Source of the DNA: Methanospirillum sp.
GTDB taxonomy: Archaea > Halobacteriota > Methanomicrobia > Methanomicrobiales > Methanospirillaceae
NCBI GenBank assembly: GCA_028695895.1
Contig: JAQVIE010000041.1
Location: forward strand, 1 to 8,279
Direction of reading: 5' to 3'
Length of the DNA: 8,279 nt
Part shown: in pieces, positions 3,017-8,004 of the stretch
Position numbering within the stretch: the first letter of the stretch is position 1
Layout: each line of letters begins with the position of its first letter
The notes under the pieces: generated by a model
What the model saw: only the letters and a program-made list of their open reading frames with translations
What the model was told of the DNA's origin: nothing
Databases searched by the model: none
Position numbers and translations under genes: made by a program

Positions 3017-4258
3017 TTACTTCTTCAGGGCGATCCTGTGCATGCCGGCAGGAACACGAATTTCAAATTTTACACCTTTTCCATGCTCCCCGGTCTCAGT
3101 GATACTCATCCCGGTAATAGAGAGGATCTCGCTGATTAAGAACAATCCCATGCCGGTGTTCTTACCAAACCCTTTCTTAAAAATCTGTGTCTTCTCTTCA
3201 GGGATGACTCCCCCGCCATCGTCCTCGTATAAGATAATTAACTCCCCGTTGCTTTGCAGATGATATGAAAGTGAAATATTAGAGACATCTGCTCCGTGGC
3301 GAAAAGAATTATCAATAAGATTATAAAACACCTTTTCGAGCATAAGGTCTGCATAGATCTCAAGACCTTCAAGAGACGAGCCAGGGGATAAACAAGGTAT
3401 CATATTCCTTAGCATCGGGCGGGCAAGGATTTCATCAGGACTTTGCCATGCAGGCTCCGCAGAACCAAGCTCCTCGTATTCCCTTGTGAAATTGATGAGA
3501 GTTTTGATCTCATACGATGACTTACTAATCGCCTCTATCCTTTTTTTCATCTTAGGGTCGGTAATATCTTCCTTAATGATCTCTGAATAAGCAGAGATCA
3601 CCATAACCCGGTTTAAGATGTCATGCCTGGTCACACTGGTAAGAATCTTCAGCTTCTGATTCACCTGTGAGACTGCATTATGGGCCTTTCGAATATCGTC
3701 AATATTATGAATTTGGATGATCAGGCAGGGCTCGTTTCGTATCCGTATCGGTGAAAACGAGACATCAGCGGTGAACGGATTGCCACACCCGTTCATGATA
3801 TTCATCTCGGCATGATATGCATGGACATCCCCCTCCGTCCCTCCGATAATCTCCCGGATTCCGGCCCCGGTGATATGAATTGCGATATCATCCAGGTGCT
3901 CCCCGATCACAGTCTCCCTGGGCCGCCGGAAGACAGACTCAAACCACCTGTTCACCTCGGTTATCCGGAATGATTCATTAACGATAAGGATCGGATCCGG
4001 GGTCTTTTGAAAGATTGAGATGAACTTCTCTTCATTCTCCCTTAATGCCTCCTGGGTAAGCAGTAACTGTTCACTCGTGTTTTTCAGGTCCGAATAAAAT
4101 TTGTCAGAGATCCCAAGGATCTTTTCCATCCGTTCAACATGTTTTATGTATGCATAACCCAGGTCAGTATAATCACGTGCAAGCGGGGAGGAATCCACCT
4201 CCAGTTCCTCTATCTTCCTGATGATAGTATCAGTATTGATTTCAGACTCTCTTTTCAT
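3017..4258 (-). CDS. Soluble PAS-domain sensor histidine kinase, putative output of the Sia module
   Basis: 413 residues with no signal peptide or membrane helix, so cytoplasmic. Residues 1-75 are predicted helical. A PAS domain covers about 78-190 (FQKTPDPILIVNES, then EVNRWFESVF). The phospho-acceptor H-box is SVTRHDILN with H212, in the style common in methanogen kinases. The GHKL ATPase domain has an N-box (FYNLIDNSFRHG, N313/N317), a G1 box (EDDGGG, D346-G350) and a G2 box (GKNTGMGLFL). All catalytic motifs are present, so it should autophosphorylate. No receiver domain or response regulator is in the window. Its ATG overlaps the siaC stop (ATGA), a strong sign of coupled translation. 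It is the last gene of the operon, where bacterial sia operons carry the diguanylate cyclase siaD. I infer that SiaC binds this kinase, perhaps through its helical N-terminus or PAS domain. Kinase assignment is secure; link to SiaC rests on gene order. Confidence 0.92.
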   Translation of the reverse strand: MKRESEINTDTIIRKIEELEVDSSPLARDYTDLGYAYIKHVERMEKILGISDKFYSDLKNTSEQLLLTQEALRENEEKFISIFQKTPDPILIVNESFRITEVNRWFESVFRRPRETVIGEHLDDIAIHITGAGIREIIGGTEGDVHAYHAEMNIMNGCGNPFTADVSFSPIRIRNEPCLIIQIHNIDDIRKAHNAVSQVNQKLKILTSVTRHDILNRVMVISAYSEIIKEDITDPKMKKRIEAISKSSYEIKTLINFTREYEELGSAEPAWQSPDEILARPMLRNMIPCLSPGSSLEGLEIYADLMLEKVFYNLIDNSFRHGADVSNISLSYHLQSNGELIILYEDDGGGVIPEEKTQIFKKGFGKNTGMGLFLISEILSITGMSITETGEHGKGVKFEIRVPAGMHRIALKK

Positions 4259-4638
4259 AATACCTGTTTTAATGCGATTATTTCAAACGGTACCTCTGCA
4301 TCTTCTTCAAATTCCTCTGCAATATCAAGGGCCCGGTCATTCTCCTGGTCATAATACCAGCTTACAGACACATCAGATCCTGCCTGTGATGACTTTGCCA
4401 GAAGATCCAGGATATCCAGCATGCATTTTGTGCTGCTTGAGTTCATGTAACTGATATTAACATGCAGATTAAATTTCTTCATACCTGGCAGGTTCATATG
4501 GAGCCATTCAAAAACAGGCTCGAAAAATGCAAATGTATTCTCCGGGTACGACTCTCCGGTGATGAAAAGCGTATGGAACTCTTCGGAAAAAGAGATCTCC
4601 GGTGTAGATTTCGTTGCAGGAATATGCAGCATATTCAT
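4255..4638 (-). CDS. siaC: SiaC-type regulatory phosphoprotein (DUF1987)
   Basis: 127 residues, the usual length of the family. In Pseudomonas aeruginosa SiaC is phosphorylated by SiaB and dephosphorylated by SiaA; the unphosphorylated form binds and activates the diguanylate cyclase SiaD. Family hallmarks here are TPEISFSEE (12-20), ITGESYPENTFAFFEPVFEW (26-45) and the central NISYMNSSSTK (61-71) followed by MLDILDLL. By motif the phosphosite should be the residue after Asn66, here Ser67 where the bacterial protein has Thr, inside a run of Ser/Thr (67-70). The start overlaps the siaB stop by ATGA. A second ATG two codons on (4632) has better spacing to the GGGGG motif at the end of siaB, so the protein may begin there (125 residues). 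The stop overlaps the kinase start. Fold is STAS/SpoIIAA-like by family knowledge. I judge the family assignment solid, the phosphosite inferred. Confidence 0.88.
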   Translation of the reverse strand: MNMLHIPATKSTPEISFSEEFHTLFITGESYPENTFAFFEPVFEWLHMNLPGMKKFNLHVNISYMNSSSTKCMLDILDLLAKSSQAGSDVSVSWYYDQENDRALDIAEEFEEDAEVPFEIIALKQVL

Positions 4639-5174
4639 GTCCCCCGGACCGTGACCTGAAGACTGAAAAAATCAAACTCCTCATCCATGGGTTCAAACCT
4701 GAATAAGAGCCCTCCATCAGTCCTTCGTGCAATATCAATAAGGCCAAGCCCTGCACTTGTTGCATCCGGTTCGCGTAACCTTCTTCTCTGTTCCTTGTGA
4801 TATTGTTTCAACCCTTCCTTGTCAAGGCTGTTTATATGTTCAAGTCTCCTTTTAAGGCCCGGTATATCGCATTTTCTGATACTGTTACCTGAAGTGATAT
4901 GATACTTGTTCTCATGGTAACTGATAAGGATAATTGATGACTGGTGTTTCTCATCAAGGTCATGCCTGGAGATATAATTGCAGATATTCTGTGTCTGTTC
5001 GATATACACCGAAAAGATATCAGAGATTGTTCCTTTTTCCCTCTCTTCTTCCTGGAGGTATATTTTTATGGCATTTCCGATCTCTTCGATGATGCTGTTT
5101 GATAATGGACCGTTAAAACTGATAAGAACGCCTTTTTCATTGAAAATTCTATGTAATTTTAATAAATTCTCCAT
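4635..5174 (-). CDS. siaB: SiaB-type protein kinase (DUF6272, GHKL fold)
   Basis: 179 residues, normal for SiaB kinases, which are anti-sigma-factor-like Ser/Thr kinases of the GHKL ATPase fold that phosphorylate SiaC. An N-terminal strand (VLISFNGPLSNSIIEEIG) leads to a helix with the N-box-like FSVYIEQTQNICNYI (54-68; E59, N63). Next is a strand pair around IILISYHENKYHITSGN (81-97). The C-terminal G2-like loop is SAGLGLIDIARRT (140-152), then a final sheet GLLFRFEP...FFSLQVTV. No signal or membrane segment, so cytoplasmic. The ATG at 5174 is preceded by AGGAGAG at good spacing, and this ribosome-binding site overlaps the siaA stop. The end overlaps siaC by four bases. Homology is judged from motifs and from the siaA-siaB-siaC order; each supports the other. 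Confidence 0.85.
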   Translation of the reverse strand: MENLLKLHRIFNEKGVLISFNGPLSNSIIEEIGNAIKIYLQEEEREKGTISDIFSVYIEQTQNICNYISRHDLDEKHQSSIILISYHENKYHITSGNSIRKCDIPGLKRRLEHINSLDKEGLKQYHKEQRRRLREPDATSAGLGLIDIARRTDGGLLFRFEPMDEEFDFFSLQVTVRGT

Positions 5175-5183
5175 ATTTCTCTC

Positions 5184-7094
5184 CTACCTGATCATAAACC
5201 CGATGATAGTAAGGTCATCCTTTGCTGCCCATGTTCCCTGGTGGGTTTCAAGTGCCTGCATCACCATCTCTCCCTGTGTTGTCATTGGCAGGTTAGAAAT
5301 ATTTCCGATAAGTTCAAGGAGTTTTTTCCTTCCAAGCCCATGCCCGTGTTGTCCCCCCGGAAGGTCCAGGATACCGTCCGTTATCAGGTATATACTGGTC
5401 TTTGTTGTATAAGGGATTATATGGTCGGTAAAGGATATTCCTCCCTTTTCCCTGGAAAACCCAAGGTGAATCCGGTCTCCTGCAATCTCGCGGACACCTG
5501 TTTCATCAGCGATGATGAGCGGCAGTCCCCCGCCGGCAAAGATAATCTCCTGCCTGTCCGGATATACTTTACAAAGTGCAATGTCAAGACCGTTTTCAAG
5601 ATGTTTTTTATCAGACTGTGCCTTAAGTGTCTGCTGCACCAGATCATGAAGTCTTTCCAGGATGAAAGCCGGTTTGCCATCCGGATTGCCTGCAATTACC
5701 TGGCAGAGCAGTGTGCTTGTCATCATCGTCATCATAGCCCCTGGAACTCCGTGTCCTGTGCAGTCTGCAACGGCTATGAAAAATCCGTCTGATGTCTTTT
5801 TCAGGAGGTAATAGTCACCTCCGACGATGTCGCGGGGTTTAATGATGGTGAAATACTCACCCAGGTACATGTCTTTCTCTTCTTTTGATGGGAATATTGA
5901 CTGCTGAATCAGCTGTGCATAATGGATAGAGTCAAGGATCTTCTCCTTTGATTGTGCAAGTTCATCATGAGTCTTCAGGAGTTCTGCTTTTGATTCCTTC
6001 AGTCTCCTCTTTGTCCGGAGTGTATAGGCAAGAATGATGACAAGGATGATTATAACAAGAATGACCGCAAAAATGGTCTGCCAGTACTGGTTTAACACCT
6101 CCCTGATGGTGGGTTTTCCATACTGGTCATATGGTGGAAACTGAAGCGACCGTAACAGTTCATGGACTTTTGTATGATCCTGTGGAACTGCCCATCCGGC
6201 TCCTCTGGTCGCCTTAGCTGCAGGATCGTCCGGTTCCATGCTGAGGAGGGCAATCGCGACATCCTTGCTTAGTTTGTGATCAGTCCCGGTTATTGCAGCA
6301 AATGGCCATTCAGGGTATAAAGGGGTGGAGAGAAGATAAGGGTAATGCGGGTATCTGCCCTCTTGAGAGTTTAGAACTTGAATTTCTGACAGGTTTATCT
6401 TCTCTTCGTTTGCCATCCGTTCAAGCTGGGAACTCCGGACGGTTCCGGTATCTTTTTCTCCTGTAAGGACTGCAAATACCACTGAATCATGTGTTCCGTC
6501 AAAGGTCAGACTGGAAAGGTCTCGTTCAGGATCTATTCCGGCTTTAAGAAGTTCGGCCCATGCTGCATGCCATCCCCCAAGGGAGGTCTTGTCAACCGCC
6601 ACAAATGTCTTACCTTTCAGGTCCCCAAGGTGAGCGATATCGGTCCGGTCTGACCTGGTAAAGATAACTCCGCCAAAAACCGCCTGTGGTTCAGGATCTC
6701 CTGGCACATAAAGCGTTGCAATCCTCTGAGCAAGACCAAAATACTCCTGGTAGGTATATACTGATGGATTTGCACAGAGGAATGAGATATTATGTGTCCT
6801 TGCTGCCTCAGGTATCTCATTAAAGTTAAGAGGAACTATCGTAAATTGCAACGGGAAGAGGGTTTTATTCAGGTAATCCGCAGTCGGTCCCCACTCCTGC
6901 ATGGCAATATCATATCCGCGGTTCGCCAGAACTCCGATCTTTACCGGCTGACTCTGGCTGGCTGTGATTGCTTTATCATGTTCCCCGGCTATGTTCTGGT
7001 CTGCCTGGGATGGCAGAATAGCCAATGCAGGTTCGAATATGAAGCCGGTGACAACGATTAATAAAATGATAAGAACCGGTATTTTTTTGTTCAT
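5184..7094 (-). CDS. siaA: SiaA-like membrane sensor: PhnD-like ectodomain fused to SpoIIE/PP2C phosphatase
   Basis: Numbering is from a TTG at 7121; I prefer the ATG at 7094 (codon 10, giving 636 residues). It lies directly before the signal sequence and is preceded by AGGAAGGGA; the TTG has no ribosome-binding site. Residues 12-34 are a hydrophobic signal ending ALA. Residues 60-330 resemble PF12974 phosphate/phosphonate-binding (PhnD) and TtrS-type sensor domains: KIGVLANRGYD, EWGPTADYLN, CANPSVYTYQE, DLKGKTFVAVDKTSLGGW. One membrane helix is at about 347-367. A coiled-coil linker with LDSIHYAQLIQQSIFP follows. The PP2C domain (about 415-644) retains metal-binding acids in RDIVGGDYY, VADCTGHGVPGAMM, ITDGILDLPG and KDDLTII, so it should be active on SiaC-phosphate. 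Bacterial SiaA instead uses a HAMP-linked sensor. The ligand is unknown; phosphonate, phosphate or a sulfur oxyanion are family-based possibilities only. Confidence 0.9.
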   Translation of the reverse strand: MNKKIPVLIILLIVVTGFIFEPALAILPSQADQNIAGEHDKAITASQSQPVKIGVLANRGYDIAMQEWGPTADYLNKTLFPLQFTIVPLNFNEIPEAARTHNISFLCANPSVYTYQEYFGLAQRIATLYVPGDPEPQAVFGGVIFTRSDRTDIAHLGDLKGKTFVAVDKTSLGGWHAAWAELLKAGIDPERDLSSLTFDGTHDSVVFAVLTGEKDTGTVRSSQLERMANEEKINLSEIQVLNSQEGRYPHYPYLLSTPLYPEWPFAAITGTDHKLSKDVAIALLSMEPDDPAAKATRGAGWAVPQDHTKVHELLRSLQFPPYDQYGKPTIREVLNQYWQTIFAVILVIIILVIILAYTLRTKRRLKESKAELLKTHDELAQSKEKILDSIHYAQLIQQSIFPSKEEKDMYLGEYFTIIKPRDIVGGDYYLLKKTSDGFFIAVADCTGHGVPGAMMTMMTSTLLCQVIAGNPDGKPAFILERLHDLVQQTLKAQSDKKHLENGLDIALCKVYPDRQEIIFAGGGLPLIIADETGVREIAGDRIHLGFSREKGGISFTDHIIPYTTKTSIYLITDGILDLPGGQHGHGLGRKKLLELIGNISNLPMTTQGEMVMQALETHQGTWAAKDDLTIIGFMIR

Positions 7095-7177
7095 ATGTAT
7101 CTTCTTTTCCCTTCCTGCCAACTACTATGGCAGATCCTGATGATTGAGAGCCCCTCCCCCGCCAGGATAGATTTCAT
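7091..7177 (-). CDS. Possible 28-residue leader ORF overlapping the siaA start
   Basis: ATG at 7177 opens a frame whose TGA (7093-7091) overlaps the siaA ATG (7094-7092) as ATGA, the same coupling seen at two other junctions of this operon. The peptide begins MKSILAGEGLSIIRICHSSW and ends rich in Arg/Lys. There is no good ribosome-binding site, and the frame is open upstream to about 7281 without another ATG. I recognise no family. It may be a regulatory leader peptide or an open frame by chance; the overlap is the main argument for it. Confidence 0.25.
   Translation of the reverse strand: MKSILAGEGLSIIRICHSSWQEGKRRYI
7115..7133 (-). promoter_or_regulatory. siaA leader hairpin next to the ribosome-binding site
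   Basis: CTGCCA-TAGTAGT-TGGCAG on the minus strand is a perfect 6-bp stem with a 7-nt loop. It ends at the start of the AGGAAGGGA purine stretch that should serve siaA and contains the alternative TTG codon. It could gate translation of siaA. Confidence 0.45.
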
Positions 7178-7794: not shown

Positions 7795-7805
7795 TTAAAC
7801 ATGAT
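7761..7805. repeat. Imperfect direct repeat copy 1, left of the IS1634-type fragment
   Basis: Contains ATCGAAAA, AGGG, AACTGTTTA and ATGAT in this order. The same blocks recur at 8165-8202 with slightly different spacing. The transposase similarity of the adjacent fragment ends where this copy begins. Confidence 0.35.
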
Positions 7806-8004
7806 AATGTAGAGATAGACGACGTTCAGTAAAACCCAGGCAATTGAGAAGTAAGGCCTTGACTGCCTGGCCATGAGTGACAAGATGACTACGTTTTTTC
7901 GGAATAAAACGATCGATATATTCACAAATTCCGAGTTTGTCGACTATACCTGATACTATACCTAAGTAAGCTACGGTAACATTTGAATCAGCAATGATGG
8001 ACAT
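7795..8004 (-). pseudogene. IS1634/DUF4277-type transposase, N-terminal fragment
   Basis: 69 codons starting MSIIADSNVTVAYLGIVSG and containing LGICEYIDRFIP and HGQAVKALLLNCLGFTERRL, the N-terminal DUF4277 signature of IS1634-type DDE transposases (normally 500 residues or more). Shortly after RLSLHYH the similarity ends and a stop (7797-7795) follows, so the whole catalytic domain is missing. No second piece of it is in the window. The ATG at 8004 has a TATA-like box about 34 nt upstream, so the fragment could be transcribed nearly leaderless, but it cannot act as a transposase. Confidence 0.8.

Follow-up and report, generated by a model that had tools for sequence, protein, structure and literature searches.

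In this study we describe an operon on an 8,279-nucleotide contig (contig JAQVIE010000041.1 of assembly GCA_028695895.1; C119) of the methanogen Methanospirillum sp. We call this whole stretch the window; it comes from a genome that is 75.85% complete and 1.15% contaminated. The operon encodes the phosphatase SiaA, the kinase SiaB and the phosphoprotein SiaC, followed by a histidine kinase (HK). We consider it probable that this is a bacterial-type SiaABC switch residing in a methanogen, in which SiaC docks on an N-terminal stalk of the HK encoded by the next gene and switches this kinase. Hence, SiaC is likely to control the HK directly, in place of driving the synthesis of cyclic di-GMP (c-di-GMP). 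The preliminary description of this DNA had reported an intact and tightly coupled order siaA-siaB-siaC (a 9-nucleotide gap between siaA and siaB, then two ATGA overlaps) and a PAS histidine kinase in the place of SiaD. Both points were confirmed by the open reading frame (ORF) coordinates and by Pfam, which identified PAS and HATPase_c domains, and the gene order recurs in five genomes. The features of the operon are the following.

5184..7094, minus strand: siaA, PP2C (SpoIIE-type) phosphatase with a PhnD-like sensor predicted to lie outside the membrane; ATG at 7094, with an in-frame TTG at 7121 as a possible alternative start
6195..6935, minus strand: sensor of SiaA, Phosphonate-bd (Pfam PF12974, 117.5 bits; PtxB 2.7e-9, ArrX 1.1e-7)
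5202..5789, minus strand: PP2C catalytic domain of SiaA (PF07228, 68.6 bits; alignment with 6k4e)
4635..5174, minus strand: siaB, SiaB-family protein kinase (DUF6272, 134.6 bits)
4635..4638, minus strand: siaB/siaC ATGA overlap of 4 nucleotides
4255..4638, minus strand: siaC, STAS-like phosphoprotein (DUF1987/PF09345, 130.1 bits, cut-off 24.5)
4438..4440, minus strand: codon of SiaC Ser67, equivalent in the alignment to the phosphorylated Thr68 of Pseudomonas aeruginosa SiaC
4255..4258, minus strand: siaC/HK ATGA overlap of 4 nucleotides
3017..4258, minus strand: stalk-PAS-histidine kinase of 413 amino acids
4055..4189, minus strand: likely SiaC-docking-type stalk helix at the N-terminus of the HK (about residues 24-68; motif R43-x-x-K46-I-x-x-I50-S51-D52)
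3725..4000, minus strand: PAS domain between stalk and kinase (Pfam), absent from the kinases of M. stamsii and genome G398
3623..3625, minus strand: codon of the predicted phospho-acceptor His212 in the TRHDILN box, invariant in 13 of 13 aligned HKs
3047..3343, minus strand: HATPase_c catalytic domain (Pfam, 47.2 bits) with the presumed N, G1 and G2 boxes

The N-terminus of the HK, which the preliminary description had missed, is likely to be a stalk of the SiaC-docking type and supports its proposal that SiaC has been rewired to a histidine kinase. HK residues 25-65 match the SiaC-binding stalk helix of bacterial SiaD. In the SiaC-SiaD structure, the SiaD stalk makes contacts through R74, K77, V78, R80, I81, S82, D83, R84, Y85, Q86, M88, R90 and D91, and SiaC T68 inserts at SiaD S82/Q86, so that phosphorylation of T68 blocks binding (PMC8457831). 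HK residues 43-60 correspond to SiaD R74-D91 in an ungapped alignment. The window HK is identical at 5 of these 13 contact positions (R, K, I, S and D) and the M. stamsii HK at 7, including Y85 and Q86; for comparison, three spirochaete stalks retain 6, 10 and 8 of them. On the SiaC side of the interface, reading an alignment by eye showed that Y65, N67, S69, D79, R103, E110 and D114 are identical to those of P. aeruginosa SiaC. I71, M75 and L107 are replaced by T, L and I, and T68 by Ser67, in agreement with the phosphosite named in the preliminary description.

We searched with a stalk profile made solely from GGDEF proteins (18 stalks from 12 bacterial proteins), and all five archaeal HKs scored between 27.4 and 31.8 bits (window HK, 28.6 bits). 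The maximum among 2200 shuffled N-termini of 11 test proteins was 6.2 bits. It is also conceivable that the N-terminal helix is an ordinary signalling helix (S-helix) or coiled coil, that SiaC is not bound, and that the HK merely shares the siaABC operon. S-helices are 40-residue parallel coiled coils that precede HKs, cyclases, PP2C and GGDEF domains, which is much the same list of outputs (PMC1592074). Moreover, the window HK contains ERM and some relatives contain ERT, the S-helix signature. We regard this explanation as unlikely, because the GGDEF-only profile separates the stalk from related sequences: among 120 archaeal-type HKs, 21 scored at least 11.8 bits and 99 at most 5.1 bits, and a background of 1355 ORFs stayed at or below 3.1 bits apart from L073, L077, L036 and L055:1087-1365 (L and G numbers denote our loci and genomes). 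The 120 kinases came from two HK searches, 16 of the 21 high scorers from the one with the N-terminus itself, and a few of the 99 low scorers look N-terminally cut. The background exceptions L073, L077 and L036 are genes adjoining siaC that had been left in the background set. In addition, the stalk is N-terminal with no Pfam domain ahead of it, occurs within the genus only together with siaC, and has kept the I-[SGA]-D motif along with some of the residues through which SiaD contacts SiaC. The remaining exception, L055 1087-1365, is an ORF of 92 amino acids just before siaC with a stalk match at residues 40-82 (25.3 bits; 8.5 bits with the GGDEF-only profile) and no Pfam domain; it could be a decoy or a fragment.

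The docking of SiaC on the stalk is further supported by the distribution of both elements in the genus. A profile search of genome contigs with SiaC returned 10 loci, of which three were from Methanospirillum/Methanomicrobiales and seven were bacterial (five Spirochaetaceae/Spirochaetales/Spirochaeta, one Holophagaceae and one Desulfobacteraceae). Of 392 genomes sampled evenly across the host phylum, two were above the SiaC cut-off, both belonging to the genus of the window, and a third (G197) was below it with 20.4 bits. Five of the 12 Methanospirillum genomes contain siaC, among them 3 of the 7 with a completeness of at least 90%, and the order is siaA-siaB-siaC-HK in each, with siaA cut by the contig end in L002. 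With a mixed stalk profile of 26 rows, including 4 archaeal ones, each of these five genomes gave one match, always the HK beside siaC, and the other seven gave none at E values up to 0.1. The co-occurrence of kinase and siaC, which the preliminary description had suggested checking in related genomes, thus has no exception within the genus: 5 of the 12 genomes have siaC, stalk and HK together, and in the other 7 neither siaC nor the stalk was detected. This pattern has a probability of 1 in 792 if the two are independent, in a set in which the genes are linked, the genomes are related and 5 of 12 are less than 90% complete. Three of the five kinases have the architecture stalk-PAS-HK (413-417 amino acids) and two, of 295 amino acids, have no PAS domain (M. 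stamsii, L008; G398/L017), and so the PAS domain is optional, whereas all five share the N-terminus and the kinase core. No GGDEF domain was found in the 12 genus genomes (5 of them less than 90% complete), compared with 8 of 14 control genomes, and a siaD elsewhere in the genome, which the preliminary description had also raised, was rejected on these grounds. Contamination or mis-binning was likewise rejected, the operon being present also in M. stamsii strain Pt1 (L008), and chance or contamination is a poor explanation because order and coupling recur in all five siaC-bearing Methanospirillum genomes.

The kinase core contains the boxes TRHDILN, NLIDNS, DDGGGV and GFGKNTGMGL, the last three of which we take to be the N, G1 and G2 boxes. 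The match to HisKA was under the cut-off (17.7 of 26.9 bits). AlphaFold2 predicted a helix from residue 25 to 84 of the window HK, and in the M. stamsii HK a single helix from residue 26 to 113 that spans the stalk and His96 (mean predicted local distance difference test score, pLDDT, 73). A phmmer search of the HK against the PDB returned kinases and a few unrelated weak matches, 7e6g being absent from them.

The three Sia proteins are members of their families. The PP2C domain of SiaA matched the solved serine phosphatase 6k4e, presumably the PP2C domain of P. aeruginosa SiaA, with 1.3e-46, and SiaC matched the structures 6kko/7e6g with 1.6e-29. SiaB passed the NCBIfam SiaB-family model NF038262 (180.1 bits, cut-off 85). 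The NCBIfam equivalog cut-offs were missed by SiaA (221.8 of 700, with a match limited to its C-terminal part), SiaB (162.8 of 225) and SiaC (128 of 150), and we therefore consider the proteins to be family members and not close orthologues of the Pseudomonas proteins. Pfam identified the PhnD-like sensor in SiaA of the window and of M. stamsii, and by sequence this sensor resembles the phosphite-binding protein PtxB and ArrX.

We also determined which proteins are encoded beside siaC in bacteria. We searched for siaC in the phyla of G402 (L004; 296 genomes), G408 (L011; 297 genomes) and G407 (L010; 199 genomes), as well as in the 7 genomes from which the first bacterial loci derive; this set samples a few bacterial phyla and not all of them. 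We removed duplicate loci, the weak archaeal locus L013 and 11 further loci in which no SiaC ORF reached 60 bits with our own profile, and counted the tandem siaC of L011 once, so that the first census comprised 52 loci (5 archaeal and 47 bacterial); three further siaC matches had no locus. With a wider profile (29 non-HK stalks) and a threshold of 10 bits, a stalk gene was present in 5 of 5 archaeal and 34 of 47 bacterial loci. The outputs of the 34 bacterial stalk genes, called by Pfam or our own GGDEF profile, were GGDEF (13), Guanylate_cyc (8), Ser/Thr kinase (5, with L073 and L077 assigned by likeness to L072), HK (5) and PP2C (2), with one left unassigned (L062). The other 13 bacterial loci had no stalk gene in the examined stretch, which was about 1.5 kb on each side for most and was cut by the contig end in L067 at least. 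Because the profile had been trained on many of the census loci, a later test was made on new loci. In the class of G805, 6 of 42 genomes were siaC-positive (one of them L063) and yielded five new full-length loci, four of which had a stalk: L095 (GGDEF), L097 (PAS-HK), L098 (PAS-PAS, cut by the locus end) and L099 (HK), with none in L096. No further full-length SiaC locus came from the 9 genomes in the class of G482. In total, 38 of 52 bacterial siaC loci have a stalk gene, with 7 HKs (L043, L045, L046, L055, L063, L097 and L099) and two unassigned outputs.

Hence, an HK is one of at least five output classes of the SiaC module, and HK outputs occur in bacteria as well as in archaea. The preliminary description had proposed the HK output as new to the module and specific to an archaeon without c-di-GMP; this was not supported, since a stalk-HK is present in 7 of 52 bacterial siaC loci and in Azospirillum sp. 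B510. With the GGDEF-only profile, the bacterial HK stalks scored 33.5 (L045), 18.2 (L043), 17.6 (L055), 9.8 (L046) and 5.5 bits (L063), and the stalk of L062 scored 9.1 bits; with the wider profile the bacterial HK stalks reached 20.6-39.4 bits. The stalk calls of L046, L063 and L062 rest on the wider profile because of their low GGDEF-only scores. Among plasmids, 19 records contained SiaC and 8 were inspected. Plasmid pAB510c of Azospirillum sp. B510 (L085 3896-5607) encodes siaA-siaB-siaC-stalkHK-stalkGGDEF, a natural branch in which one siaC is accompanied by two stalk outputs. In L086, L087, L089, L090 and L091 a GGDEF gene adjoins siaC, with a stalk of 14-21 bits in four and less than 8 bits in L086, and no GGDEF gene was found next to siaC in L088 and L092.

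The gene after siaC in L069, L070, L072, L073 and L077 encodes a fusion of a stalk with a Ser/Thr protein kinase, and one Ser/Thr switch may here drive another kinase. In L040 and L044, the corresponding gene joins a stalk to a second PP2C phosphatase. L095 2673-3152 and the fourth genes of L068 and L075 have a cysteine segment (C..C.K.R.D..YW type) after or between stalks. Genome G408 (L021, L028-L032) contains six SiaC matches, one of them partial, and two flank one siaB (L011). Weak bacterial SiaC matches of about 22-27 bits (L048-L053, L059-L061 and L066) may form a separate DUF1987-related family.

The spacing between stalk and output follows a heptad register in GGDEF proteins. The distance from the stalk Asp (SiaD D83) to the Asp of the DxLT motif was 20, 27, 34, 41 or 48 residues, which is always 6 modulo 7, in 19 of 19 GGDEF proteins, measured from the stalk copy nearest to the GGDEF domain, which was told by eye from stray pattern matches, with several of the proteins being close relatives; L095, measured in addition to these 19, has a distance of 20. 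In HKs without a PAS domain, the stalk Asp lies 43 (both archaeal kinases and L043), 22 (L045, L046 and Azospirillum) or 29 residues (L055) from the phospho-acceptor His. This corresponds to 1 modulo 7 in 6 of 7 lineages (P of about 4e-4 if the residues modulo 7 are equally likely), in a test made after seeing the data and with the independence of lineages being a matter of judgement. The distances in PAS-containing HKs (160, 163 and 152) are not comparable with these. A heptad dependence of kinase linkers is established, for example for YF1 (PMC6798134). It appears that many enzymes use the stalk as a portable input helix.

A number of observations weigh against the docking of SiaC on the kinase stalk and against the portability of the stalk. 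SiaD Q86, which forms a hydrogen bond with the phosphosite Thr, corresponds to Tyr in the window HK and in L003, S82 corresponds to Ala in L003 and M. stamsii, and R80 and M88 are lost. Each archaeal kinase has one stalk motif compared with two in P. aeruginosa SiaD, and the AlphaFold2 model of the window HK is poor (mean pLDDT 61). The stalks of L063 and L046 are weak with the GGDEF-only profile, considering that shuffled sequences reach 6.2 bits; with the wider profile they score 24.1 and 20.7 bits. Distal stalk copies, present in 7 GGDEF proteins, are at 6 modulo 7 in 2 of 7, and so the register rule concerns the output-adjacent copy. The HK lineage of L063 and L099 has a distance of 52 residues (3 modulo 7), and class III cyclases have no single register (70 and 63, 0 modulo 7; 54, 5 modulo 7; 255 with an intervening GAF domain, 3 modulo 7). 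A direct helix register does not apply to the window HK, because the PAS domain separates stalk and DHp domain. Finally, a stalk gene is missing from the examined stretch of 14 of 52 bacterial siaC loci, and 7 of 12 genus genomes, 4 of them at least 90% complete, yielded no siaC, so that the system is dispensable.

Based on homology and on the solved SiaC-SiaD complex, we propose the following mechanism. SiaA, with its PP2C domain and PhnD-like sensor, would likely sense an oxyanion-type ligand and alter the dephosphorylation of SiaC Ser67, the residue that SiaB is predicted to phosphorylate. Unphosphorylated SiaC would bind the HK stalk at R43/K46/I50/S51/D52, as it does on SiaD, and phospho-Ser67 would clash with the stalk. 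Binding of SiaC would likely fix the stalk coiled coil and so set the kinase activity via the PAS domain; in M. stamsii, the coupling would run through the one predicted continuous helix into the DHp domain. The HK would then pass its phosphate to a response regulator, likely a REC protein. A 2018 census reported that response regulators with GGDEF/EAL outputs are missing from most archaeal genomes and that stand-alone REC proteins occur in abundance, and it counted 133 HKs and response regulators in M. hungatei JF-1 (PMC5847659). In L003, a stand-alone REC gene starts 68 nucleotides after the HK gene; in the window, an IS110-type transposase ORF is present there instead. The sign of the control is the least certain step. 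We favour activation of the HK by unphosphorylated SiaC, as for SiaD, and this homologous case of activation (PMC8457831) speaks against the opposite sign. It is nevertheless a real, if lesser, possibility that free SiaC inhibits the kinase activity or favours a phosphatase state, since single-residue changes in linker length change the response of YF1 (PMC6798134), and since activation of SiaD involves its release from an inactive pentamer (PMC8457831), a step that kinases need not share.

We next consider the origin of the system. In a midpoint-rooted tree of SiaB+SiaC (37 tips), the archaea formed one clade (support 97.3/96). They grouped with four Spirochaetaceae, whose fourth gene encodes a GGDEF protein, and L043, which encodes a hybrid HK, with support of 97.3/99, and with the four Spirochaetaceae without L043 with only 71.3/65. 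The siaABC genes likely came from bacteria, because the archaea nest inside bacteria under this rooting, and siaC is widespread in bacteria and above the cut-off in no other sampled archaeal genus. Bacteria could also have supplied the stalk-HK as a whole together with siaABC, in which case the archaeon would have rewired nothing. Stalk-HKs and stalk-PAS-HKs do occur in siaC operons of bacteria (the seven loci named above), and L043, with its stalk-HK-REC protein, is among the closest by SiaB+SiaC. We nevertheless find such a transfer improbable, because in a tree of HK cores the archaeal kinase clusters with archaeal-type HKs and is widely separated from the six bacterial stalk-HKs that were placed there. 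In this tree (75 tips; 8 proteins whose H box was missed by the pattern were dropped, and L097 and L099 are outside it), 15 archaeal stalk-HKs fell into a 20-tip group with five non-stalk archaeal-type HKs and with no bacterial stalk-HK; the support at its base was poor (30.6/40). The archaeal cores lay at patristic distances of 6.5-9.1 from the six bacterial stalk-HKs, compared with 0.9-2.8 from 54 archaeal-type HKs that lack a stalk. HK relatives with an organism name were all archaeal among the best 120 of 3240. Since the cores lie near archaeal-type HKs and far from bacterial stalk-HKs, it is likely that the archaeal stalk was fused, perhaps more than once, to a local archaeal-type kinase core. 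The 39-residue comparison did not point to any single bacterial stalk copy as the source of the archaeal stalk, and such a descent was therefore rejected.

Overall, we lean towards the view that SiaABC is a general plug-in switch, in which one SiaC-docking helix in register drives at least five enzyme classes (GGDEF, class III cyclase, Ser/Thr kinase, PP2C and HK). A methanogen would have taken up the bacterial switch and grafted the helix onto its own HK, giving a Ser/Thr-to-His/Asp relay where no GGDEF was found. The census suggests that readout of SiaC via a portable helix allows the same switch to be attached to many outputs, and this portable-stalk rule is the most interesting part of our finding. 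If true, the targets of SiaC-family proteins would be predictable from sequence, Ser/Thr signalling would be connected directly to two-component signalling in bacteria and archaea, and there would be a register rule for building SiaC-controlled enzymes. DUF1987 proteins have been suggested to modulate adjacent proteins (PMC8457831). Among the literature matches listed, with subscription papers and preprints mostly outside coverage, we found no report of a non-cyclase SiaC target and no description of bacterial siaC/stalk-HK operons.

Directly downstream of the operon, in the region 1794-2604 of the window, is an IS110-family transposase ORF (DEDD_Tnp_IS110, 2170-2604), overlapped by a second ORF (1794-2207) without a Pfam match that may be a transposase remainder. 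The other contig end has a DUF4277 fragment (7795-8004), which we take to be a typical N-terminus of insertion sequence transposases. A piece of an NAD-dependent epimerase gene lies at 440-910 on the minus strand. Archaeal type IV pilin N-termini are encoded near the operon in L002 (5467-8352) and L003 (6525-7631). An Rfam scan of the window gave no match, and weak matches to the ParM_N, Protocadherin and MqnE domains were disregarded.

The closest known system is SiaABCD of P. aeruginosa (PMC8457831, PMC7647112). It shares with the window the order phosphatase-kinase-phosphoprotein-target, a SiaC-family protein with a phosphorylatable residue at the T68 site (Ser in the window) and a target that starts with a stalk matching the SiaC-binding motif. 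It differs in that the target in the window is an HK with PAS and HATPase_c domains and one stalk motif, instead of a GGDEF cyclase with two, that SiaA of the window has a PhnD-like sensor, and that the host is an archaeon of a genus in which no GGDEF was found. The archaeal-type PAS/REC/HAMP kinases of Methanospirillum, Methanoregula and other archaea have the same TRHDILN-type core (P0141 and P0143 are 65% and 59% identical to the M. stamsii core), but carry PAS, REC or HAMP N-termini in place of the stalk. S-helices are likewise coiled-coil helices upstream of HK, cyclase, PP2C and GGDEF domains; they are nearly always located between two signalling domains and typified by ERT (PMC1592074), whereas the window stalk is N-terminal, linked to siaC and marked by the I-[SGA]-D motif. 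In the bacterial stalk-HK operons, siaC is also followed by a kinase with an N-terminal SiaC-type stalk, and the stalk-PAS-HK architecture of the window is found again in L097; the six of their kinase cores that were placed in the tree are far from the archaeal ones, and Azospirillum has a stalk-GGDEF protein in addition.

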